Of a stretch of 25,525 bases of DNA, positions 1-18,809 are shown piece after piece. This DNA is from a virus. Position 1 is the stretch's first letter; each line of letters begins with the position of its first letter. The DNA lies in IMG/VR virus record IMGVR_UViG_3300042564_002465, positions 1 through 25,525 of that record; one strand, written 5' to 3'. The position numbers were made by a program, and so were the translations under genes. Below the pieces are notes generated by a model, which had not been told where the DNA came from, did not search any database, and saw nothing but the letters and a program-made list of their open reading frames with translations.

Positions 1-317
1 AACCTTTTATAAATTTTCGAATAAACCTCAAAGTTAGTAATATTAAAATTTTTATCTTCCCAGTTTTGAGTTATTTCAAACTTGCCCTCTGCTACTAAAT
101 TTTCAACATCATCTCTTCCAAATTTTTCAAGGCAAAAGTTTTTTAAATTTCCTAAATATTCTATACGCCAATCTTCTTCACCGATACTGTCTATAAGACT
201 AAAAATATCTTCTATTTCTTTTTCAGAAATAAAATTTTTTACTAATATAACATTGTCATCTATTTTTTTTATTTCAAAGTTATTTTCAATTAGTTCTTTT
301 TCTAAAAAAGCACTCAT
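1..317 (-). CDS. 2OG-Fe(II) oxygenase-like protein, N-terminal part
   Basis: This minus-strand frame is open from the ATG at 317 to the window edge, so about 105 N-terminal residues are visible. The segment around residues 22-45 (VILVKNFISEKEIEDIFSLI) matches the opening strand and helix of the neighbouring oxygenases (compare VVYENFLTAEESAKIILALE in the next gene). The catalytic HxD...H part would lie outside the window. Its start is 1 nt beyond the stop of the upstream gene, so it belongs to the same operon. The oxygenase assignment rests on N-terminal resemblance and context only. Confidence 0.55.
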   Translation of the reverse strand, partial: MSAFLEKELIENNFEIKKIDDNVILVKNFISEKEIEDIFSLIDSIGEEDWRIEYLGNLKNFCLEKFGRDDVENLVAEGKFEITQNWEDKNFNITNFEVYSKIYKR

Positions 318-318
318 A

Positions 319-1068
319 TTATTTTAACTCTTCTATGCTATATTTATTTCCACTTTCGTCTAACTTATATCCTTCTTTAAGAAGATTTTGCCATTCTTCT
401 TTTTCAATTTTTTGAGCAGCTCTAACTTTGTCCATCTCTTCTTTCCATGCAGCCCTTAGTTCTTCTGGATAATCTGATTCTTCTCTATCATCCCAAAAAG
501 ACCCCAGTGTATACCTAATTCCTTTAGTTATTATACTTACTTCATGCATGTTGTTGTGGCTACCATTAAATGCTGCAAGCATTCCAACTTTTGGAGATAG
601 CTCAACATTTCTATCTGGGAACTTTAATAGACCACCTTCAAAATTGTCATTAAGATATAGAAATGCTGCATATCTACTTCTTTCAAATGCTCCGAAATTT
701 CCATGCTCATCTGTATTATCCGAATGAATACGAGCAAATGCTCCTGGCTCCCATTTTTGTGTGTGATATCCTATTTGAGAAATTTTTTCTTCGGGGGTAT
801 TATGAACAGAAGCTACAGCTTTAATTATGCCATTTTTAATATCTGAAAATACAGTTGGTGTTAATCCAACCTCTTCTAATTCTGGGTCATTGTCTTGTGG
901 TAATACTGAAGAATATGATTCATAAAAAGATATAGGGGTCCATGAAATCTTTTGATTTTCTGCTTGTTTTTCTAATGCTAGAATAATTTTAGCAGACTCT
1001 TCGGCAGTTAAAAAATTTTCATAAACAACTAGGTCTTCATTGATTCTTTTTTTATCATTTAGATTCAT
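319..1068 (-). CDS. Fe(II)/2-oxoglutarate-dependent oxygenase (prolyl 4-hydroxylase-like)
   Basis: A 249-residue protein with the double-stranded beta-helix signature of the 2OG-Fe(II) oxygenase superfamily. Visible metal ligands are H115 and D117 (HSD) and distal H175. R185 in the motif KGIRYTLGSFW is the expected 2-oxoglutarate carboxylate ligand. FLYLNDNFEGGLLKFP is the strand pair typical of P4H-like enzymes. Members hydroxylate protein side chains or small molecules using O2 and 2-oxoglutarate; the substrate here is unknown. The start overlaps the upstream gene by 4 nt (ATGA), indicating translational coupling. A charged C-terminal extension of about 50 residues follows the core. Confidence 0.88.
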   Translation of the reverse strand: MNLNDKKRINEDLVVYENFLTAEESAKIILALEKQAENQKISWTPISFYESYSSVLPQDNDPELEEVGLTPTVFSDIKNGIIKAVASVHNTPEEKISQIGYHTQKWEPGAFARIHSDNTDEHGNFGAFERSRYAAFLYLNDNFEGGLLKFPDRNVELSPKVGMLAAFNGSHNNMHEVSIITKGIRYTLGSFWDDREESDYPEELRAAWKEEMDKVRAAQKIEKEEWQNLLKEGYKLDESGNKYSIEELK

Positions 1069-1736
1069 GGCTTTTTATCTCCAGTATGTTCTGTAATTTC
1101 CCAAAAAAATGGACACGTAAATCTTATGCCACTTTTTATTTCAGTTACTCCATGAATATATTGCATATCTCCTGGGAAAAAATAAGCAGCTCCAACTTTG
1201 GGTTTAAACTGAACCCCTTGGTTTGGAAAATATAATTCGCCACCCTCGTAGTCTTCGTTTAAATAAAATAAACTTGAAAGGTCGTAGTTTGGAAAATCAT
1301 TTGGCAATCCAGCATCTGGCCCCTCATGTAGCTCTTTATCTGCGTGGGGATGTTGATATTGTCCTGGAAGCCATTTTACTATTGTTGCTCCAGTTGGAAT
1401 AACTTTAACTTTATAAAAATCTTCAATAATTGGCTCTAGTCTTTTAAATAACCCTGTGATAACTGGTGCTATTTTAGGATCATTTTTATTTAAACTTGGA
1501 GTTGTGGCAACTCTATCTTTCCAGTAATCTGAATCATATATCACTGTGCCATTTTCATTAACATGGCTTTGTGTTACATCCCAAATTGTTATAGATTTTG
1601 CAGCATTTTCTAAAAACTCTATTTCATCTTGAGTCATAAAATTTTCTAACTCAACAATCATTTCTTTCCCACTACCAAACCAGCCAGAAGGTGTTTTAGA
1701 GGGTTTTCTTGTTACAACATTATCTAAGTCAGCCAT
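1065..1736 (-). CDS. Fe(II)/2-oxoglutarate-dependent oxygenase (prolyl 4-hydroxylase-like)
   Basis: A 223-residue enzyme of the same superfamily. The iron ligands are H131 and D133 (HAD) and H195; R205 (GIRFTCPFFW) should bind 2-oxoglutarate. FYLNEDYEGGELYFPNQG is the family's diagnostic core strand. With the next gene downstream it forms the arginine-type pair in this cluster, unlike the lysine-type enzymes at 2467 and 3939. An extended -10 (TGG then TATAAT) ends exactly 6 nt before its ATG, inside the 3' end of the upstream gene, so it may also have its own leaderless transcript. Substrate unknown. Confidence 0.88.
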   Translation of the reverse strand: MADLDNVVTRKPSKTPSGWFGSGKEMIVELENFMTQDEIEFLENAAKSITIWDVTQSHVNENGTVIYDSDYWKDRVATTPSLNKNDPKIAPVITGLFKRLEPIIEDFYKVKVIPTGATIVKWLPGQYQHPHADKELHEGPDAGLPNDFPNYDLSSLFYLNEDYEGGELYFPNQGVQFKPKVGAAYFFPGDMQYIHGVTEIKSGIRFTCPFFWEITEHTGDKKP

Positions 1737-1738
1737 AA

Positions 1739-2467
1739 TTAAATTATACCACCGCTTCTATTTTTAGTATTATCTTGAACAAAAAGCTTTAAAACTTTTG
1801 CTTCATGTTTTCCAGTGGTTTCACCTTTTTCATTTACAGCATCTCTATACCAATCTGTCCATTGTCCTTGAGAATTTATTTTTTGTGCTCCTTCTCCGTA
1901 AGATTTAATATTTTTTTGTCTTATATCCCCTGGATCGGAAAAATCAACAATATTAATCGATGTATTATTCATTTCAGTAAGTGATATTGGAATAATTTGT
2001 GCAATAGGAGTATTAGCTTTTATTAAAATATTTTTATTTGGAGATTTAGCTTTTATGGCTATTGGAAAATCTGTATCAAGCCAAGAAGTGCTAATCAAAG
2101 ATGACACAACTTCAAAATCATCATTAAAATAATTAATAGGATTTATTGTTAACATGCTAATATTTTCATCAGTTCTAAACACTAGGCCAGTTACTATGCT
2201 TACTGTTGCCTGACCTCTTCCAGTATAAAGAAAATCCTTTTTACTAAGGATATTAATATTTTCAGAACTTGTATCATTTATTCCATTCCAGACAAATTCA
2301 ATGTCTTGTGTGCAAGACAAACTCCAGCCAACCATATTGGCTTGAGTAACTGGAAAACACCTATATGCATGTTTTTCTGGAGTAAGGTCCATCCAATCTC
2401 TTTTTATAGACATGGGAGATATATTGATTACAGATTCTGTTTTTTTTTCAACTGATATGTTTAGCAT
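1739..2467 (-). CDS. DUF6065-like protein
   Basis: A 242-residue protein that I match, with moderate confidence and from memory, to the DUF6065 family. The recognisable parts are RDWMDLTPEKHAYRCFPVTQ (about 24-43), the following ANMVGW, the FVWNG strand, and a central NPINYFNDDFEV...SSLISTSWLDTDFP...NTPIAQIIPIS core. No catalytic residues are known to me. It shares the same order of motifs with the gene at 3155, so the two look like diverged paralogues. Its start overlaps the upstream oxygenase stop (TAATG). Placement between oxygenases suggests a shared substrate or target, which is inference. Confidence 0.6.
   Translation of the reverse strand: MLNISVEKKTESVINISPMSIKRDWMDLTPEKHAYRCFPVTQANMVGWSLSCTQDIEFVWNGINDTSSENINILSKKDFLYTGRGQATVSIVTGLVFRTDENISMLTINPINYFNDDFEVVSSLISTSWLDTDFPIAIKAKSPNKNILIKANTPIAQIIPISLTEMNNTSINIVDFSDPGDIRQKNIKSYGEGAQKINSQGQWTDWYRDAVNEKGETTGKHEAKVLKLFVQDNTKNRSGGII
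1743..1751 (-). promoter_or_regulatory. Extended -10 promoter for a leaderless transcript of the 1736 oxygenase gene
   Basis: On the minus strand TGG-TATAAT (1751 to 1743) is followed by exactly 6 nt and then the ATG at 1736. It lies within the last codons of the upstream gene. No ribosome binding site can fit in between, so translation would start on a leaderless mRNA. Confidence 0.6.
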
Positions 2468-3144
2468 TAGTCTTCGTCTGCACGATACATTTCTGGAGTA
2501 TGAAACTTTTTGTTGTAATCTAACATAGTGACAATAGAGTATTTTGTTCCAGAATGAACTGGCATTGCCCTGTGTGGATACATGAAATTAGAAGGAAATA
2601 TAAACAAGTCTCCTGCTTCTGGTTTAATATTTAAATTTTGTAGTCTAAAGTATAACTCTCCACCTTCATAATCATCGTTTACATAGGCTACCAATGAAAC
2701 TGTGCAGTTATATGAAAAACCGTGGTCGTGATGTTCTTGGAAGTGTTGTCCTGGACCATATTTAATAAAGTTAAAGGCTTCCCAATACTTTAAATCCATA
2801 ATGTTGTGATGTGCTCTATAGTCTTCAACTGCTTGAAACTGTGCATCATAAACATCTTGCCACAGTGCTTGAAGAGCTGCAGAATCGGGATCTAAATCTT
2901 GTTGTATATCAGTTTTTTTAAACTTAAAATCTGAACAGTCCCTGTATAATGGCATAAGCTCTTTATAACCTACATATGCTGGATTCCAGTGGTATTTCTT
3001 TCCATCTTTTGATAATTCTCCAATTGGTGCAATTTCTCCTAAAACATTTTCTAGTCTATTAATAACATCAAATTCTTTTTTTATAACATTTTTATATAAA
3101 AAAATTCCATTACCTAGATCTTGCTTTTCTGTCCAAGTTTGCAT
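2467..3144 (-). CDS. Fe(II)/2-oxoglutarate-dependent oxygenase, lysine type
   Basis: A 225-residue 2OG-Fe(II) oxygenase. The probable ligands are H138 and D140 (within HHDHG) and distal H191; K201 (SGTKYSIV) replaces the usual arginine as the 2-oxoglutarate salt-bridge residue, as in vertebrate prolyl 4-hydroxylases. YVNDDYEGGELYF marks the core. It is clearly more similar to the enzyme at 3939 than to the arginine-type pair: both share DC.DFK, a long helical insert, YYEAFNF or YWEAFNF, and YNCTVS. A good ribosome binding site (AAGGGG) precedes the ATG. Substrate unknown. Confidence 0.88.
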   Translation of the reverse strand: MQTWTEKQDLGNGIFLYKNVIKKEFDVINRLENVLGEIAPIGELSKDGKKYHWNPAYVGYKELMPLYRDCSDFKFKKTDIQQDLDPDSAALQALWQDVYDAQFQAVEDYRAHHNIMDLKYWEAFNFIKYGPGQHFQEHHDHGFSYNCTVSLVAYVNDDYEGGELYFRLQNLNIKPEAGDLFIFPSNFMYPHRAMPVHSGTKYSIVTMLDYNKKFHTPEMYRADED

Positions 3145-3154
3145 TTTATTCCCC

Positions 3155-3946
3155 TTATTTATAGTCTCTTTTAGACCAAACTTTATTTTTATAAATACCG
3201 CCGTCTGGTTGACGATAAAACTTCATGTTCTCTACCATTTTATCATAAATTTCTTTTTCTTGTTGAATGTGTATTTCTTGTTGCCAACCTTCTCTTTTAA
3301 AAGGCAAGATTTGCATGTATGGTGTTCCACCAGGAATAGTTCCTTCCCATCCTTCTGGAATAAAAAATGGAAACGTTCCTAATAAATTAACCTTATCCAC
3401 ATCTACAACACCCGTTGTATTTAAAAATGGAAGATCAAATCTATTCATTGGAGACATAAAAATAGCACTATATCCTTCTGGTAACTCTATAGCCCAATCT
3501 GGATACCAAGCAAAATGATCTTTATAAAATCCATAAGGATGTTCAAATTGTGGCATTGGAGGTCTTTTTCCACAAAAATCTTGATACCTTGGATCTAATA
3601 TTTTAACATCAATAGTTCCACCATCATTTTTAAAAAAAGTAATATCACAAGGTGTTTTCAATATATAGCCACTTGTAAATCCATCTAGTATAGCTGGACA
3701 TGCTTTCCAAGTTGGTATCTTTCCATAATCATTTTCTGTTCCCTCTTTTGGAAATGGACATATTGTTGATGGAGCATCATAGTATTCATCTGTAATTGGG
3801 TTTTTAGCAAACCTATCAGCTTCTTTATACCATTTTGGAATAGCATCTTGAGTTGGACTTGGAGCCGACATACTTTCTTTATTTAGCCATGGCCTATAAG
3901 ATATAAATTTGATTAAATTTAAAGATATATCAAATTTTTTAACCAT
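3155..3946 (-). CDS. DUF6065-like protein (paralogue of the 1739 gene)
   Basis: A 263-residue protein with PKWYKE near residue 39, then IPTWKACPAILDGFTSGYIL, a central WAIELPEGYSAIFMSPMNRF, then VVDVDKVNLLGTFPFF and GGTPYMQILPFKREGW. This resembles uncharacterised proteins seen in many aquatic phages. The order 'P-N-x-F ... VD or D-x-D ... FPF ... G-T-P-x-x-Q-I-x-P' repeats in the gene at 1739. The start overlaps the upstream oxygenase by 8 nt. It sits between two lysine-type oxygenases, so a functional link to them is likely but unproven. Confidence 0.6.
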   Translation of the reverse strand: MVKKFDISLNLIKFISYRPWLNKESMSAPSPTQDAIPKWYKEADRFAKNPITDEYYDAPSTICPFPKEGTENDYGKIPTWKACPAILDGFTSGYILKTPCDITFFKNDGGTIDVKILDPRYQDFCGKRPPMPQFEHPYGFYKDHFAWYPDWAIELPEGYSAIFMSPMNRFDLPFLNTTGVVDVDKVNLLGTFPFFIPEGWEGTIPGGTPYMQILPFKREGWQQEIHIQQEKEIYDKMVENMKFYRQPDGGIYKNKVWSKRDYK

Positions 3947-4655
3947 GTTGTTTGTGACCTAATTCATTAATATCTGTCATAACTACAACACAATACTTTG
4001 TTCCAGATTTTATTGGAAGGGATGCATGTTCATAGATATAGTTTGATGGACAAAGAACTATGTCTCCAACCTTTGGTTTATATACAAGGTTGTCTAACCT
4101 TGGAAATTTTAACTCTCCACCTTCATAGTCATCATTAATATATACTACAGCTGATACGGTGCAATTATATGCTGGTCCATGGTCTGCATGAATGTTGAAG
4201 TGAGATCCCTTTCCTTCATACTTAACAAAATTAAATGCTTCATAGTATGTTACATTTATTCCCCAGTATGCAGCATAGTCATCTACGCAGTATTTTAACT
4301 TTTCGTATATCTCTTGATGAAGATCTATAAGCTCTGCATTGTTTTCATTTCTTGGACCTAAATTTTCTTGTTTATACTTAAAGTCTACACAATCCCTTGC
4401 TTTTTTAATTGGAATTGTAGAGTTTGTTACCTGGGCTTCTGACCAATTGTATTCTTTGCCTTGACTCAAATTTGATTCTAAAGTGTTTATATATTTTTTA
4501 GAATCTTCTAATGAAAATACATTTTGATAAACATTAACACCTAATGCTAGATTTTCAACTAATATACCATTGTCTAAAGACTTTTTATTTACTCTATTAC
4601 TTGATGTTTCAGACCTGTCTTTTGTAAACCATTGATTTGAATTTTCATCATTCAT
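3939..4655 (-). CDS. Fe(II)/2-oxoglutarate-dependent oxygenase, lysine type
   Basis: A 238-residue enzyme; I chose the ATG at 4655 rather than one 30 nt upstream because AAGGGGG lies at proper spacing before it and an extended -10 lies just upstream. Ligands in this numbering are H156 and D158 (HAD) and H210; K220 (SGTKYCVVV) is the 2-oxoglutarate ligand. YINDDYEGGELKFPRL is the core motif. The first 30 residues are polar and probably disordered. It is the first gene of the oxygenase/DUF6065 operon. Close similarity to the 2467 enzyme suggests duplication of an oxygenase plus DUF6065 two-gene unit. Confidence 0.88.
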   Translation of the reverse strand: MNDENSNQWFTKDRSETSSNRVNKKSLDNGILVENLALGVNVYQNVFSLEDSKKYINTLESNLSQGKEYNWSEAQVTNSTIPIKKARDCVDFKYKQENLGPRNENNAELIDLHQEIYEKLKYCVDDYAAYWGINVTYYEAFNFVKYEGKGSHFNIHADHGPAYNCTVSAVVYINDDYEGGELKFPRLDNLVYKPKVGDIVLCPSNYIYEHASLPIKSGTKYCVVVMTDINELGHKQHG

Positions 4656-4673
4656 AAATGCCCCCTTTATATA

Positions 4674-4682
4674 ATCATACCA
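4674..4682 (-). promoter_or_regulatory. Extended -10 promoter of the oxygenase operon
   Basis: On the minus strand TGG-TATGAT reads 4682 to 4674, followed 18 nt later by the ATG at 4655 with an AAGGGGG Shine-Dalgarno in between. The TGG-TATNAT form matches the extended -10 upstream of several other minus-strand genes here (1743, 6976, 8214, 9437). Confidence 0.55.
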
Positions 4683-4706
4683 CAAACCTAAAATTTAATA
4701 AAGTTT

Positions 4707-5171
4707 TTAGAATCCAAAGAATGGAGGGAATTGAGGTGGGAAGAATGGGAAGAATGGTGGGAAGAATGGGAAGAACGGTGGGAAGAACGGGAAGAACGGT
4801 GGGAAGAATGGGAAGAACGGGAAGAATGGTGGGGCAACGGTAGCTGGAGTAACAGAATTAGAAGCAGAAGAAGCAATGGATGTTGCAATAACACTATTAT
4901 CAGAATTTCTTGTTTGTGCTGTTACGGTAAATGTATATGATGTTCCATTTGCTAATCCAGAAACAGTGATTGGTGATGTTGCAGAAGATCCTGTAATTGA
5001 ACTTGGGGTAGATGTTGCTATATATAAATTATTTGTTGATGGTTTTCCTAAATATGTTGGTTCTGTAAATGGAACACTTGCAGATGTATCTCCTGCACTT
5101 GCAGTTCCTATAATTGGTGCTGTTGGTTGACGTCCGTCAGAAGATGCTGACACCCCTGGAATTATTGGCAC
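4707..5171 (-). CDS. FnIII-domain protein with a Pro/Phe-only C-terminal repeat
   Basis: A 154-residue protein. I place the start at the GTG at 5171 (TAGTG overlap with the upstream stop); a TTG at 5201 is possible. Residues about 16-110 form one fibronectin type III domain, with the hallmark GLANGTSYTFTVTA. Residues 114-154 consist almost wholly of proline and phenylalanine, with four copies of PPFFPFF, one extra PFF, one Q and one terminal G. In DNA this is a 21-bp tandem repeat. FnIII domains are common on phage virion surfaces. The hydrophobic tail could be an adhesive or cell-envelope contact tip; that is inference. Confidence 0.75.
   Translation of the reverse strand: MPIIPGVSASSDGRQPTAPIIGTASAGDTSASVPFTEPTYLGKPSTNNLYIATSTPSSITGSSATSPITVSGLANGTSYTFTVTAQTRNSDNSVIATSIASSASNSVTPATVAPPFFPFFPFFPPFFPFFPPFFPFFPPFFPFFPPQFPPFFGF
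4712..4832 (-). repeat. 21-bp tandem repeat encoding PPFFPFF
   Basis: Purine-rich repeats on the plus strand (units close to GGTGGGAAGAATGGGAAGAA) encode the Pro/Phe tail on the minus strand. Units differ only at AAT versus AAC positions, implying recent expansion or contraction. Confidence 0.85.
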
Positions 5172-5959
5172 TATGCAACCAAATCTCCAATAAGAACCCA
5201 AGTATTTTCTGCACGTTTAATTAATGTAGCAGATGACCATTGCGCTCTTAACTTTAAACCAGGAGTTGCATTTATAGTTACCCCGCTAGTTGCTACTACA
5301 GTTGTTTGTCCAACTCCAGTTTGTAAAATATTAATTTGAGAGCCAATTGGATACGCTACTGATGAATTTAATGGAACAGTTAAGTTGTTAGCAGAAGCAT
5401 TACTTATTTCCACTAACTTATCTTTATCTGTTAATACTAATGTATATGATGCAGCTTGGGCATTTGTAACTAATGTTGATGGAGCAAAGTCTATTGCTGC
5501 CGTTGCATTTCCTACTTGAATCTTTTTATTTGTTGTATCCCAAGAAATTCTTGCATCTGTTGTAGAAGATGTTGTAGATAATGTTAGGTTTGGAGACAAT
5601 ATAGAATCTGACCATTCAAGACCTGTTGCGGTGGCACTATTAGTAGTTAAGATTCTTCCATTTGCGCCTGCGGTTAATATAAGTGGTGTATCATTTGCAG
5701 ATGCGCTAAGAAGATCTCCTTTAGCATTAAAATCAGCTTTTGCAACTGCTGCAGAAATATCAACGTTATCTATTTGTTCTTGAAGATCATTAATTGTATA
5801 TGCAATAGATGGGTTTATTAGGTTTGCAGTATTTGTTTCTGCAGTATCAAAAGTATATGACCCATAGTGATAGGCACGTAGTGCTGCTTGAATATCAGCG
5901 GCATCTGTATACCCTGGAATTTTTGTTGGAACCAGGGTTCCAATACTCTCAACTGCCAT
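5171..5959 (-). CDS. Phage tail-fibre-type structural protein
   Basis: A 262-residue protein starting at the ATG at 5959, which has an AGAGGTG ribosome binding site and an extended -10 upstream. Residues about 80-116 carry the segment GDLLSASANDTPLILTAG followed by a conserved GLEW, a recurrent module in actinophage tail-fibre and appendage proteins. Residues 53-68 (SIAYTINDLQEQIDNV) look like a short trimerising coiled coil. The C-terminal half is rich in beta-prone Ser/Thr/Val/Asn sequence. The N-terminal GTLVPTKIPGYTDAADIQ resembles tail-attachment modules. It probably contributes to the host-contact apparatus. Confidence 0.65.
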   Translation of the reverse strand: MAVESIGTLVPTKIPGYTDAADIQAALRAYHYGSYTFDTAETNTANLINPSIAYTINDLQEQIDNVDISAAVAKADFNAKGDLLSASANDTPLILTAGANGRILTTNSATATGLEWSDSILSPNLTLSTTSSTTDARISWDTTNKKIQVGNATAAIDFAPSTLVTNAQAASYTLVLTDKDKLVEISNASANNLTVPLNSSVAYPIGSQINILQTGVGQTTVVATSGVTINATPGLKLRAQWSSATLIKRAENTWVLIGDLVA

Positions 5960-6984: not shown

Positions 6985-7710
6985 TTAGGAAACTGATATA
7001 TATATTCCTTTTAGCATAACAGTTCCTTCGTTGTCGGACCTAACTTGTAGTATACCACCAAAAGCCTTAACGTCTTTATTTTTAACAAAGATAGTTTGAC
7101 AAAAAGAAAAGTCATAAGAATATTGATATTTTAAATTTCCTAGATACCCCACTACAGAACTTTCTTCATCTACAGAAAATGTTCTAATCCATAGTTCTGT
7201 ATTATTATTATAGGTTTCTATTTCTAGATCATACCTAATATCAACTTTGGCCCCTAACTGAAATGCCCTAAGATTAATCCTTTTTGCTACTTCATTTAAA
7301 AGGGATACAGATTTATTTGGAAGATATTTTTCAACACTTTGTTCTTTATCTATATCTAAAAAAACAGATACCCATCCATCATCTCCTCTTTCTGGACCAA
7401 TCTTTATTTTGTTATTATTTTTATTTTTATAATAAGCCCATCCTGGATATTGTCCAGATGCACTATCGTATCCTTCTGCCCCCTTACCTGGCTCTCCACG
7501 CTCACCCTTTGGTCCTTCGGGTCCTTGTTTTCCAGGATCGCCCTTATCTCCCTTTGGTCCCTGAATTCCTTGTGGCCCAATAGGTCCTATATCGCCACGT
7601 TCACCTTGAATTCCTGGAACAGCAACATATTCTGTATTTACTACCTCTTTTACGGTTTCTGAATATTTTTTCTTTTTTGAAACATCTGGAAAGTCCATGC
7701 TTTTAGCCAT
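6985..7710 (-). CDS. Collagen-like phage appendage protein
   Basis: A 241-residue protein. Residues 33-77 are about 15 consecutive Gly-X-Y triplets (GIQ, GER, GDI, GPI, GPQ and so on), which should form a short trimeric collagen helix. After a Tyr/Gly-rich link (GYDSASGQYPGWAYYKNKNN) comes a C-terminal domain of about 150 residues that looks like a trimeric head (VSVFLDIDKE...TMLK-type strands). Collagen-like segments are common in phage tail fibres and act as trimeric stalks. No convincing ribosome binding site precedes the ATG, so translation may depend on coupling to the small upstream ORF. Confidence 0.75.
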   Translation of the reverse strand: MAKSMDFPDVSKKKKYSETVKEVVNTEYVAVPGIQGERGDIGPIGPQGIQGPKGDKGDPGKQGPEGPKGERGEPGKGAEGYDSASGQYPGWAYYKNKNNNKIKIGPERGDDGWVSVFLDIDKEQSVEKYLPNKSVSLLNEVAKRINLRAFQLGAKVDIRYDLEIETYNNNTELWIRTFSVDEESSVVGYLGNLKYQYSYDFSFCQTIFVKNKDVKAFGGILQVRSDNEGTVMLKGIYISVS

Positions 7711-8536: not shown

Positions 8537-9193
8537 TTAAAATATCCAATTATTTTGTTTTGCTAAATCATAATATTTTATATATTCATTATTCCAATAA
8601 ACATCAAAATCTGAAGTGTATGAATAGCAGTCTCTTTCATGATATCCATGTAATGCTGATAATAAATTAAAATCAATTTCTTCGTTATAATTTTTAATTA
8701 TAGCTGCAAATTCAAAAAAAGTAATATTTACCACTCTGTCATTTCTTATAAACTCTTCTTTTATCCTTATTAGTAAATCATCAATTATTTTTTTTATGGT
8801 ATAAGATTTTCCTAAAGAAGCCATTGTTCCATTTGGCGCCATACCATATTTTATTTGAGGACCAAGTATAAAGTTATGGTTTTTAATGTTATTTTTAAAA
8901 ACTTGATTAAGGGGGTTTTGACAAACAGAATCCATGTCAGTATAGAACCCACCGTATGTGTATAAAACGCATAGTCTCCAAATATCTGCCTTGTTTATTG
9001 GACTTAAATATTGATAGTAGTAGTAAAGCTCATCGCTATACTCTTTTACGTGTATTTTTCTTGCTTCGGCATTACAATACCTATATTCCCACTCTGGATT
9101 TAGATTTTTCCAGGTTAAAGAGGCCATCCTGTAGTCATGCCGTAAATCATCATAGTCTAATTCATAGGTTTGCCAAATTATTTTAGGTATCAT
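8537..9193 (-). CDS. GT32-type glycosyltransferase with a DXD motif
   Basis: A 218-residue protein of the family related to OCH1 and capsular polysaccharide transferases. IPKIIWQTY opens the protein, NKADIWRLCVLYTYGGFYTD (67-86) is the highly conserved nucleotide-sugar and Arg motif, and D86-M-D88 is the metal-binding DXD. Such enzymes transfer a hexose from a nucleotide sugar in the cytosol. In a phage it may decorate virion proteins, DNA bases or host surface glycans; which one cannot be told here. It lies between the membrane protein and the structural genes. A weak TATGGT hexamer ends 6 nt before the ATG. Confidence 0.85.
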   Translation of the reverse strand: MIPKIIWQTYELDYDDLRHDYRMASLTWKNLNPEWEYRYCNAEARKIHVKEYSDELYYYYQYLSPINKADIWRLCVLYTYGGFYTDMDSVCQNPLNQVFKNNIKNHNFILGPQIKYGMAPNGTMASLGKSYTIKKIIDDLLIRIKEEFIRNDRVVNITFFEFAAIIKNYNEEIDFNLLSALHGYHERDCYSYTSDFDVYWNNEYIKYYDLAKQNNWIF

Positions 9194-9213: not shown

Positions 9214-9429
9214 TTATTTTTTATTATGATCTGAAATATGTTCAATTAATAGATCGAATATCTTATCAGTTTTTTCTTCAAGGCGCACAACAGAATCTTT
9301 TAGGCTGGATCCTGAATTGGGTTTAAGCTCGTTTAAATAATGCTTTACCATCCATTTGATTCCCCCAGCAAAAATTGCAAAAATAGAAAGTATAGATAAT
9401 ACTAACGCAGCCCAGTCTTGTGCAGTCAT
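9214..9429 (-). CDS. Small single-pass membrane protein (holin-like)
   Basis: A 71-residue protein with one hydrophobic segment at about 7-27 (AALVLSILSIFAIFAGGI), a basic hinge (KWMVKHY), and a charged helical C-terminus likely to form a coiled coil (LKDSVVRLEEKTDKIFDLLI). Size and topology fit class III-like holins or other small phage membrane proteins. No endolysin is visible in this window, so the holin label is tentative. The ATG lies 7 nt after a perfect extended -10 and has no ribosome binding site, suggesting a leaderless or nearly leaderless mRNA. Confidence 0.6.
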   Translation of the reverse strand: MTAQDWAALVLSILSIFAIFAGGIKWMVKHYLNELKPNSGSSLKDSVVRLEEKTDKIFDLLIEHISDHNKK

Positions 9430-9436
9430 AAGATTT

Positions 9437-9445
9437 ATTATACCA
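9437..9445 (-). promoter_or_regulatory. Extended -10 promoter of the 9429 gene
   Basis: TGG-TATAAT reads 9445 to 9437 on the minus strand, with 7 nt before the ATG at 9429. It is the start point of the leftward virion/accessory block. Confidence 0.6.
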
Positions 9446-9519
9446 GTATTTGAGATAATATAATTAGTTTTTCAATTTGGCGGAAATTAAAACGGCGCCG
9501 AAATAGAGGTTATACAAAC

Positions 9520-9542
9520 CTTCCCATAGACAACTATGGAAG
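9520..9542. other. Hairpin in the divergent intergenic region
   Basis: CTTCCCATAG (9520-9529) pairs with CTATGGAAG (9534-9542) with one bulged C and an ACAA tetraloop. No T tract follows. It lies in the 257-nt divergent spacer between the leftward and rightward blocks. Nothing else in 9446-9674 is supported beyond generally A/T-rich sequence. Confidence 0.5.
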
Positions 9543-9674
9543 AAACTTCCAATATGTCTAATAACGGTTATATCCCTAATTTGCGGGGGTATTTAAGTAT
9601 AAGCCAAAGTCCACTATGGGAATATACTTTAGTAGCTTTATATCGTCATATAGCTAGAATGGTTTGTTATAGGA

Positions 9675-9680
9675 TATACT
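9675..9680 (+). promoter_or_regulatory. -10 element for leaderless transcription of the 9687 gene
   Basis: TATACT is followed by exactly 6 nt (TTGTAT) and the ATG. No convincing -35 element was seen at 17 or 18 nt. No Shine-Dalgarno sequence can be accommodated. Confidence 0.5.
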
Positions 9681-9686
9681 TTGTAT

Positions 9687-9881
9687 ATGTCAGATGATGT
9701 TAAGGTTTGGGATTTATTTAATGGAGATAAGACGCCAGAGGAAATTTCTATGTCCCGCCTCGAAATTTGTAAAACCTGTGAATGGTTTAGACCTAAAACC
9801 CAAACATGTAAAAAATGTGGATGTTTTATGAAATTAAAAACAACTTTAGAAAAAGCTAAATGTCCTATTGGCAAATGGTGA
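9687..9881 (+). CDS. Small zinc-binding protein, DUF6171-like
   Basis: A 64-residue protein. I prefer the ATG at 9687 over a TTG at 9681 because it lies exactly 6 nt after a -10 hexamer. Six cysteines (28, 31, 41, 44, 46, 59) in the arrangement CKTC...CKKCGC...KCPIGKW form a likely zinc module. The pattern CGCFMKLKTTLEKAKCPIGK is shared by a widespread family of short phage proteins that I recall as DUF6171. Function unknown. It is the first rightward gene of the early block. Confidence 0.75.
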   Translation: MSDDVKVWDLFNGDKTPEEISMSRLEICKTCEWFRPKTQTCKKCGCFMKLKTTLEKAKCPIGKW

Positions 9882-9882
9882 C

Positions 9883-9911
9883 TTGCAATCCTAAAAAGTT
9901 TTTGATATACT
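9883..9911 (+). promoter_or_regulatory. Sigma-A-type promoter of the 9939 gene
   Basis: TTGCAA (9883-9888), 17-nt spacer, TATACT (9906-9911) with an upstream TGA giving an extended -10. A leader with AAGGAG follows. Confidence 0.7.
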
Positions 9912-9938
9912 TAATGTAAACCAACTAAGGAGAATAAA

Positions 9939-10124
9939 ATGACAAAAGATGAAATTTTAAAAATGATGCTAGAAAGTATTAATAACGATAATCGTCAAAT
10001 TTGTATAAGAAACCAAATGCCTGAAGATCAAATTGAAAAGTCGATAAAAGAAAGCCAAGCACCTTTGATGCTTATAGTAGAAAGTCTATACAATAAATTG
10101 AAAGAAAAGAATTTATTAGTATAA
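9939..10124 (+). CDS. Hypothetical early protein, helical
   Basis: A 61-residue protein preceded by AAGGAG and a well-formed promoter. The sequence is almost entirely helical and charged (KDEILKMMLESINNDNRQI ... LIVESLYNKLKEKNLL). No motif recognised. It converges on the 10127 gene, with only 2 nt between their stop codons. Confidence 0.7.
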   Translation: MTKDEILKMMLESINNDNRQICIRNQMPEDQIEKSIKESQAPLMLIVESLYNKLKEKNLLV

Positions 10125-15098: not shown

Positions 15099-15821
15099 AT
15101 GACTAAACTACTTAGAAGCAAAGATAGGAAAGTAACTAATGCCGTCTCACCAAATGGAAAAACAGCAACAATTGCCAACACTTTCGGTTTACCTGCTGGA
15201 AAAGATTTCTCGTGCCCTGGTGCCACTAGTGTATGTGAAAGCGTATGCTATGCAGGAAAACTCGAAAACCTCTTCCCTGGAGTAAAGAAAAACCTCCTAC
15301 ACAATTGGGAATTAATAAAAAATGCAGATGAAGAAACTATGGTTTCTTTATTGTCAGTAATGATAGATGAATTTATTATTGACTGCGATAAGAAGAAAGC
15401 TCCTAAACTATTCCGCATTCACTGGGATGGTGACTTCTTTAATGATACTTATACTAATGCATGGAAGACAGTTATAACTAATCATCCCGAAATTCAATTC
15501 TGGGTATATACACGTGTCAGATCTGCCGCCCTTATATTGAACGGAATAGATAATCTATCTTTATACTATTCAACAGATAGTGAGAATAAGGCTATAGGTA
15601 TTGACCTTAAAGTTAATAATGGTATTAGATTAGCATACCTTGCCAAAAATTTTGCAATGGGTCAAGAAGACATGAAAGCACTAACGGGAAAGGTAGGGGC
15701 AAAGTGTCCTGAAAATAAAAAAGCAATTCCACTCATATCCACCGCTGGTTCCGCTTGCGTTTCTTGTAGTTTGTGTGTATACTCGAAAGCGGACATAGTT
15801 TTTTCCTCTAGTAAGAAATAG
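15099..15821 (+). CDS. Gp88-family phage protein (PF17338-like)
   Basis: A 240-residue protein matching, by recalled pattern, the 'gene product 88' family of actinobacteriophages. Diagnostic parts are NTFGLPAGKDFSCPGATSVC (27-46), then ESVCYAGK, then LFRIHWDGDFFNDTY (104-118), then FWVYTRV (134-140). Seven conserved-looking cysteines lie in two groups: C39, C46, C50, and C203 with C220, C223, C226 (CVSCSLC). The second group could ligate a metal or Fe-S cluster. H108, D110 and D112 are candidate active-site residues. Biochemical function is not known to me. The upstream ribosome site (AAAGAGAG) is only moderate. Confidence 0.85.
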   Translation: MTKLLRSKDRKVTNAVSPNGKTATIANTFGLPAGKDFSCPGATSVCESVCYAGKLENLFPGVKKNLLHNWELIKNADEETMVSLLSVMIDEFIIDCDKKKAPKLFRIHWDGDFFNDTYTNAWKTVITNHPEIQFWVYTRVRSAALILNGIDNLSLYYSTDSENKAIGIDLKVNNGIRLAYLAKNFAMGQEDMKALTGKVGAKCPENKKAIPLISTAGSACVSCSLCVYSKADIVFSSSKK

Positions 15822-17728: not shown

Positions 17729-17758
17729 TTGACATATGTCTGCCCGTCCTGTTATACT
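17729..17758 (+). promoter_or_regulatory. Promoter of the DUF932 gene
   Basis: TTGACA (17729-17734), TGTCTG (17737-17742), 10 nt ending TGT, TATACT (17753-17758); the -35 to -10 spacing is 18. It combines a consensus -35 with a one-base variant of the TGTCAG box. Confidence 0.75.
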
Positions 17759-17792
17759 TGAGATAACAACAACAAAAAGGAGAAAAATACCT

Positions 17793-18809
17793 ATGGCACA
17801 TGACCTAGAAAGTCAAAATGGAAAAGCGTCTTTTGCGTCTTTCCGTGAACCTGCATGGCATGGATTGGGAACTGTATTCACAGAAGAAAAAAACACCACA
17901 GAAATGCTGGAAGCAGCAAATCTAAATGGTTGGAATGTTCGTCTGCAAGATATGGAAATTCCATCTACACTAACAAGCGATAAATCATATCAATATGTTT
18001 TACGCACTAACCCTACTAATAATACCCAGACAGATGTTTTGGGAATTGTTGGTGAGCGATATGTTCCACTACAAAATGAAGATTTATTTTCATTCGGTGA
18101 TAATATCCTAGATGGTGGTGGACGTTGGGAAACCGCAGGTTCAATCAAGGGTGGGCGTGTTGTATTCGGCTCTCTTGCATTAGAGCGTGAGACAATCCTA
18201 GACCCTAGCGGTGTTGCAGATAAGGTTAAAACTTATCTACTTATTAACACATCACACGATGGCTCAATCGCTATTCAAGCAAGCATTACACCTGTTCGTG
18301 TTGTGTGCGCTAACACTCTCAACCTTGCACTAAATCAAAAGAAAAAGAAAAATGGTGTCAAGCAATCTTTCAAGATTCGCCACACTCAGACCGCAGAAGG
18401 CAAAATCCAAATTGCTCGTGAGACTTTGGGCATGGCTAATGCATACATGGATGAATTCGACATCATGGCTAAAGCGATGATTGAGAAGGAAGTTTCTGCT
18501 AAGCAATTCAATGACATCATTCTTGCGGCATATGCTAAGCCAGATAAAGATACTAAGGGTGCTATCAAGAAATGGGAAAATAAAGTTGACATCATCAATG
18601 ATATTTATACTGGTGAATTTAACGGAATGATTGCGGGTAATGCGTGGGGTGCTTTCAATGCACTAACCGAACGCCTTGATTGGTATCGTTCTGCTCGTGG
18701 TGGTTCTAATGAATCAATCCTTGCAAGTGCAAGTGGTTTTGACCCTGCTATCAATGCAGAAAAAAATCGTTTGCTAAAAGTTGTTCAGAATGTTATGCAA
18801 CTAGCATAA
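17793..18809 (+). CDS. DUF932 / TIGR03299 phage-plasmid protein
   Basis: A 338-residue protein starting at the ATG at 17793, which follows AAGGAG; an upstream in-frame ATG lies inside the promoter. PAWHGLGTVFTEEKNTTEML (near 20-39), GIVGERYVPLQNEDLFSFGD, SHDGSIAIQASITPVRVVCA and the C-terminal NAWGAFNALTERLDWYRSAR are hallmarks of the DUF932 family (TIGR03299, LGT-like) found on phages and plasmids. The length is normal for the family. The biochemical role is unresolved; a role in DNA metabolism or host takeover is often suggested. It is the largest early gene here. Confidence 0.9.
   Translation: MAHDLESQNGKASFASFREPAWHGLGTVFTEEKNTTEMLEAANLNGWNVRLQDMEIPSTLTSDKSYQYVLRTNPTNNTQTDVLGIVGERYVPLQNEDLFSFGDNILDGGGRWETAGSIKGGRVVFGSLALERETILDPSGVADKVKTYLLINTSHDGSIAIQASITPVRVVCANTLNLALNQKKKKNGVKQSFKIRHTQTAEGKIQIARETLGMANAYMDEFDIMAKAMIEKEVSAKQFNDIILAAYAKPDKDTKGAIKKWENKVDIINDIYTGEFNGMIAGNAWGAFNALTERLDWYRSARGGSNESILASASGFDPAINAEKNRLLKVVQNVMQLA

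Follow-up and report, generated by a model that had tools for sequence, protein, structure and literature searches.

Why does an aquatic bacteriophage keep a cluster of diverged 2-oxoglutarate (2OG)-Fe(II) oxygenases just behind a tail gene, and what do these enzymes act upon? The question arises from positions 1-25,525 of IMG/VR record IMGVR_UViG_3300042564_002465, a stretch of 25,525 nt called here, over its whole length, the window, whose left end holds such oxygenases interleaved with two DUF6065-like genes. By comparing this cassette with its relatives, we found that it is linked in both directions, including joint absence, to an array of Pro/Phe repeats at the end of the tail protein encoded directly upstream. 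We consider that tail protein the likely substrate, with the oxygenases hydroxylating its array sequentially, which points to a virus that may alter the chemistry of its own tail. Aquatic viromes abound in phage 2OG oxygenases, and our literature search found neither a substrate for them nor a paper tying phage oxygenases to a tail repeat; a specific and testable candidate substrate can now be proposed.

The minus strand carries every cassette feature as well as the tail gene with the array. In transcription order, with the part past the left edge of the window taken from IMG/VR contig L005, which is the same virus (99.82% identity over 8,330 bp), the features are the following.

4707..5201, minus strand: Fn3-type tail protein with the Pro/Phe array, the proposed substrate (fn3 E 8e-5, below the cut-off; homologues exceed the cut-off)
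4710..4835, minus strand: C-terminal array of the Fn3-type tail protein, APPFFPFFPFFPPFFPFFPPFFPFFPPFFPFFPPQFPPFFGF
3939..4685, minus strand: oxygenase slot D, the first transcribed, HxD..H..K (PF13640, 41.8 bits)
3155..3946, minus strand: DUF6065-like protein 2 (phrog_7084, E 3e-32)
2467..3144, minus strand: oxygenase slot C, HxD..H..K (PF13640, 57.3 bits)
1739..2467, minus strand: DUF6065 protein 1 (PF19541, 110.7 bits, cut-off 26.6)
1065..1736, minus strand: oxygenase slot B, HxD..H..R (PF13640, 35.4 bits)
319..1068, minus strand: oxygenase slot A, HxD..H..R (PF13640, 35.2 bits)
3..317, minus strand: oxygenase slot 0, N-terminal part, clipped by the window edge (full-length copy at L005:8013-8669)
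L005:8685-9311 and 9339-10040: two further oxygenases past the window edge (PF13640)
L005:10047-10712: short-chain dehydrogenase, directly after the L005 oxygenases

A sequence-only reading had described four complete oxygenases with HxD...H iron ligands and an Arg or Lys to anchor 2OG, and all four stand: each exceeds the curated PF13640 cut-off of 27 bits, as do the full-length L005 copy of the edge gene and the two further L005 genes, and the catalytic residues are present in 4/4 (HDHR, HDHR, HDHK, HDHK). The fragment at 3-317 gave no meaningful Pfam match; its full-length copy matches PF13640 (E 2.2e-11) with HDHR, bearing out a fifth oxygenase that begins at the left edge. The description "five in a row" survives in part, as the window does hold five oxygenases, in an order (oxygenase-DUF-oxygenase-DUF-oxygenase-oxygenase-oxygenase) that is not uninterrupted, and five undercounts a cassette that L005 shows in whole to be seven oxygenases followed by the dehydrogenase. 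In a joint alignment the four complete oxygenases share 23-30% identity with the first sequence, which marks them as old paralogues rather than fresh duplications. The start codon of the tail gene is uncertain (TTG/GTG), and slot D has an alternative start at an internal ATG at 4655.

The tail gene at 4707-5201 lies directly upstream (5') of the cassette, and its Fn3-type product ends in the array PPFFPFFPPFFPFF... Across relatives, PPFF and PFF units are about equally frequent (1457 and 1449); the first Phe of the unit varies (Y 190, S 48), and the second is kept in 3158/3191. The array is unlikely to be a mere DNA repeat, the second Phe being nearly invariant while the Pro codons vary. Its codon use is inverted: TTC makes up ~90% of Phe codons (5781 TTC, 630 TTT), compared to 14% in the cassette genes. 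Both at 4710-4835 and in relatives, the arrays also use CCG far more often than those genes do; expansion of the repeat or control of translation may underlie this bias.

Linkage was assessed from both sides. A blind DNA scan that used only the DNA encoding PFFPPFFPFF as its query, with oxygenases left out of consideration, recovered array loci. Of those having 3 kb or more of sequence, 69/76 had the cassette downstream, on the same strand, and 0/55 had it upstream; a control scan for collagen repeats placed it downstream in 2/66 and upstream in 0/83 (array versus control, Fisher 2.5e-29). In the reverse test, which retrieved cassettes through slot C, an array was found no more than 2.1 kb away in all 34 cassettes with at least 3 kb of upstream sequence. 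The shared tail locus also offers a natural comparison, its copies being found via a conserved tail marker gene (with at least 8 kb downstream) or via the Fn3 part minus the array. Marker-gene loci comprised 43 with both array and cassette, 6 with neither, 1 with the cassette only and 2 with the array only (Fisher 9e-6), and the last two (L381, L382) in fact bear YSFTP repeats. Homologues of the Fn3 part divided similarly (54 with both, 5 with neither, 1 with the cassette only, 0 with the array only), and at least two oxygenases accompanied 106/109 arrays after pooling and deduplication.

Alleles of the same tail protein that lack the Pro/Phe array end instead in FGAFGFTP, FGFSP or YSFTP repeats or in a hint-like C terminus, and the cassette is missing from them; near four array-less alleles there are two oxygenases, several kb off, that match cassette slots weakly. 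This second array type (FGFSP, FGFTP, YSFTP) occurs without the cassette in related phages L398, L415, L513, L477 and L504, and hint/intein-like C termini of the Fn3 tail protein were read from the sequence at L415:12580-14172, L392:5698-7209, L047:632-1936 and L019:2603-3907, the last with a weak Intein_splicing match. Pro/Phe arrays also occur on unrelated carriers (PT-rich, PASTA-like), and most such contigs hold the cassette elsewhere; PT-rich, Cys-containing proteins with short arrays (L364:386-2899, L434:2241-3194, L387:2929-4701) may serve these phages as additional substrates. A blind genome scan for the array outside cassette phages gave 10 contigs, with the cassette in 1 (L208), a contig of a Chitinophagaceae metagenome-assembled genome that is probably a phage fragment binned with that genome.

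The cassette is neither a chance arrangement nor unique to this virus, because relatives of the slot C enzyme (2467-3144) occur in at least 598 IMG/VR stretches. Among the best 80 of these, which were the ones examined, nearly all share the order D-2-C-1-B-(E)-A-0-F/G, and a second order, D-C-1-2-B, is seen among relatives too. In all 48 complete cassettes from diverged IMG/VR phages, we found the two DUF6065-like genes along with slots C, B and A; slot D was present in 47/48 and slot 0 in 42/48, with 5-11 oxygenases per cassette. In a maximum-likelihood tree, some long branches of which are of unsure placement, the main slots for the most part group by slot rather than by locus, the clades of D and C being sisters, and across the aligned domains of 875 enzymes the catalytic set is HDHR in 385 and HDHK in 335, most others being split alignments. 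By these comparisons the cassette is a conserved module of distinct orthologous oxygenase slots, and selection probably maintains every slot for its enzymatic function. Array length did not correlate with oxygenase number (rho 0.17, p 0.24), and we set aside some modest slot effects, which were confounded by lineage and uncorrected. Cultured phages yielded no cassette in near-identity or protein searches; the array protein was not found in cultured-phage searches either, which a low-complexity filter limits.

Among solved structures, the nearest natural matches to profiles of the five slots D, C, B, A and 0 were bacterial prolyl 4-hydroxylase (P4H), collagen prolyl 3-hydroxylase 1 (P3H1), PHD2, lysyl hydroxylase LH3 and PiuC: slot D was closest to P4H (E 5e-6), slot C to P4H and LH3, slot B, among natural proteins, to P3H1 and P4H, and slot A to P3H1 (E 1e-9). 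P4H, P3H1 and PHD2 belong to the same 2OG-Fe(II) superfamily, with HxD..H and a Lys or Arg, but are distant from the cassette, which has five or more paralogous slots; the relation of the five slots to P4H and P3H is distant (E 1e-9 to 1e-2), and the structure library is biased. Slots B and C also matched a few unrelated or designed proteins over short stretches, which we took as chance. The hydroxylase resemblances are consistent with peptide hydroxylation, the direction in which the library leans; P4H, P3H1 and PHD2 are not known to act on a PFF substrate. Slot A also weakly resembles (E 7e-6) a YhhC-type 2OG oxygenase (NF041706) that modifies ribosomally made peptides; its 25.8 bits fall far short of the 150-bit cut-off, and this resemblance, too, fits peptide hydroxylation.

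Viruses that encode hydroxylases for their own repeat proteins have precedent in the mimivirus lysyl hydroxylase and the chlorovirus prolyl 4-hydroxylase, which are found in eukaryotic viruses, come as one or two enzymes and act on collagen or similar substrates. The present cassette differs in belonging to bacteriophages, in having 5-11 enzymes and in its Pro/Phe array, and it would extend viral repeat-protein hydroxylation to bacteriophages, in a form that uses several enzymes and acts on a new repeat type. The nearest cultured-phage relatives of slot C are cyanophage 2OG-Fe(II) oxygenases (PMC3037559), all with <60% identity and none covering 80% of the query. Up to five of these occur per genome (table, PMC3037559), and they have been proposed to act in 2OG/nitrogen status or DNA repair, without a linked repeat substrate (PMC3037559).

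The two DUF6065-like genes, also part of the sequence-only reading, held up as a related pair. DUF6065 protein 1 matches PF19541 directly, and the gene at 3155-3946, called DUF6065-like for want of any Pfam match, including one to PF19541 at its cut-off of 26.6, matches protein 1 by profile-profile comparison (E 1.4e-8) and shares phrog_7084 with the gene at 1739-2467. AlphaFold2 models were confident, with a predicted local distance difference test (pLDDT) of 91 for protein 2 and 87 for protein 1. With Foldseek, the protein 1 model had 30 PDB matches at E<=1e-3, all of them dUTPases, the fit being moderate, with a TM-score against the target (TMt) up to 0.74; the top 50 matches of protein 2 were nearly all dUTPases or dCTP deaminases, and weak (TMt mostly 0.4-0.6). 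A fold of the dUTPase superfamily is predicted for both, and neither matched a solved dUTPase by sequence at E<=1. dUTPases bear a GxxDxDY motif; at that position, read by eye, protein 1 has LISTS and protein 2 keeps VxDxD. Relatives adjoin thymidylate synthase in a halovirus and are found close to ribonucleotide reductase in cyanophage S-RIM4, and a further DUF6065-like gene adjoins a B12-dependent ribonucleotide reductase without oxygenases at L392:8184-8894, L394:15073-15783 and L428:13891-14610. In proteobacteria, DUF6065 exceeded the Pfam cut-off in 16/299 genomes, with no 2OG oxygenase in short flanks and no clear context in larger ones; a pattern scan of bacterial genomes with protein 1 as query found nothing, and the literature searched made no mention of DUF6065.

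From this evidence we infer the identity of the substrate, the positions modified, the biological effect and the location in the virion. The cassette would be a dedicated posttranslational modification unit for a phage tail protein, its first gene supplying the Fn3-type protein with a C-terminal (P)PFF array and its slot oxygenases hydroxylating array residues in succession, most likely prolines (peptidyl prolyl 3- or 4-hydroxylation) and possibly phenylalanines. We propose that several distinct enzymes are kept because the repeat offers several chemically different positions: the single Pro, the first and second Pro of PP, and the first and second Phe. In some phages the dehydrogenase directly behind the last oxygenase may oxidize a hydroxyl further, and the DUF6065-like proteins are probably binding or assembly partners rather than dUTPases. 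Hydroxylation would give this very hydrophobic Pro/Phe tail solubility and a capacity for hydrogen bonding or sticking, and the outcome would be a modified adhesive or receptor-binding tip. A bolder version, which we regard as speculative and rather doubtful, is an assembly line of 5-11 enzymes with dUTPase-fold helpers that heavily hydroxylates both Pro and Phe, yielding a mussel-like or glycosylated adhesive; exchanging the whole unit for other array types would alter how the phage attaches to its host. If the tail protein is indeed modified, phages invest several enzymes in one tail protein, a set of peptide hydroxylases with differing site preferences becomes available, and DUF6065 gains a structural context; a short repeat peptide and a defined enzyme set form a candidate system. 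Under this reading, oxygen and 2OG may also govern how phages adhere in oxygenated surface water.

Several observations weigh against a modified tail array. A 38-kb contig (G312) is a clear exception, having the array without the cassette. Because the loci are related, the p-values imply more independence than exists; at 70% identity the slot C proteins from the blind set fall into 10 clusters, and at 80% into 20. Most PDB entries in this Pfam family are protein hydroxylases, which biases nearest-structure evidence, and enzymes of this fold are not known to hydroxylate Phe commonly. The placement of the 4707-5201 protein in the virion is suggested by its neighbors only. A modified array does not account for the predicted dUTPase fold of the DUF6065-like proteins, and a DUF6065-like gene persists in alleles without oxygenases. 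This fold is the only link of the cassette to nucleotide or glycan substrates, and it is what lends some appeal to nucleotide or DNA-base modification, in which the oxygenases would act like TET/JBP enzymes by hydroxylating a base while the DUF6065 proteins would process the modified nucleotide pool. The thymidylate synthase and ribonucleotide reductase neighbors in the halovirus and S-RIM4, a B12-dependent ribonucleotide reductase that comes after the cassette in one 115-kb phage, and a weak, subthreshold Tet_JBP match of slot B all fit this idea. We nevertheless think it improbable, as it leaves the two-way linkage and joint absence of array and oxygenases unexplained, the nearest solved structures are protein hydroxylases, and the DUF6065-like gene found beside the reductase after loss of all cassette oxygenases indicates that the two can be uncoupled.

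It is similarly unlikely that the cassette modifies a host cell-surface glycan or small molecule while the PFF tail protein merely shares its host-recognition island. The cassette does lie among variable tail genes, which in the window include a DXD glycosyltransferase (8537-9193, minus strand; PF04488 E 2e-14), and some loci have other enzyme-like neighbors; but such neighbors are sporadic, the glycosyltransferase family occurring in only 4 loci, compared to a near-universal array, and the cassette is missing where that tail protein bears another type of array. The initial suggestion that a nearby Pro-rich virion protein is modified gained strong linkage support for the (P)PFF-array protein and lost it for the collagen-like one. 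Collagen is the classic prolyl and lysyl hydroxylase substrate and the window encodes a PF01391 protein, the collagen-like fiber at 6985-7710, yet the control scan, with the cassette at 2/66 collagen-repeat loci, rules this neighbor out as the partner, and its family occurs in only 13 loci; modification of another virion protein such as this one is very improbable.

The terminase of one 115-kb relative that holds the cassette shares 55% identity with those of Streptomyces phages such as StarPlatinum, so the relative's phage group, though not by extension the window virus, probably infects Actinobacteria. The same relative encodes a tryptophan halogenase (L356:11832-13382, PF04820 E 7e-102). 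Two further neighbors were seen in the window.

15099-15821, plus strand: GP88-family protein
17736-18809, plus strand: DUF932 protein

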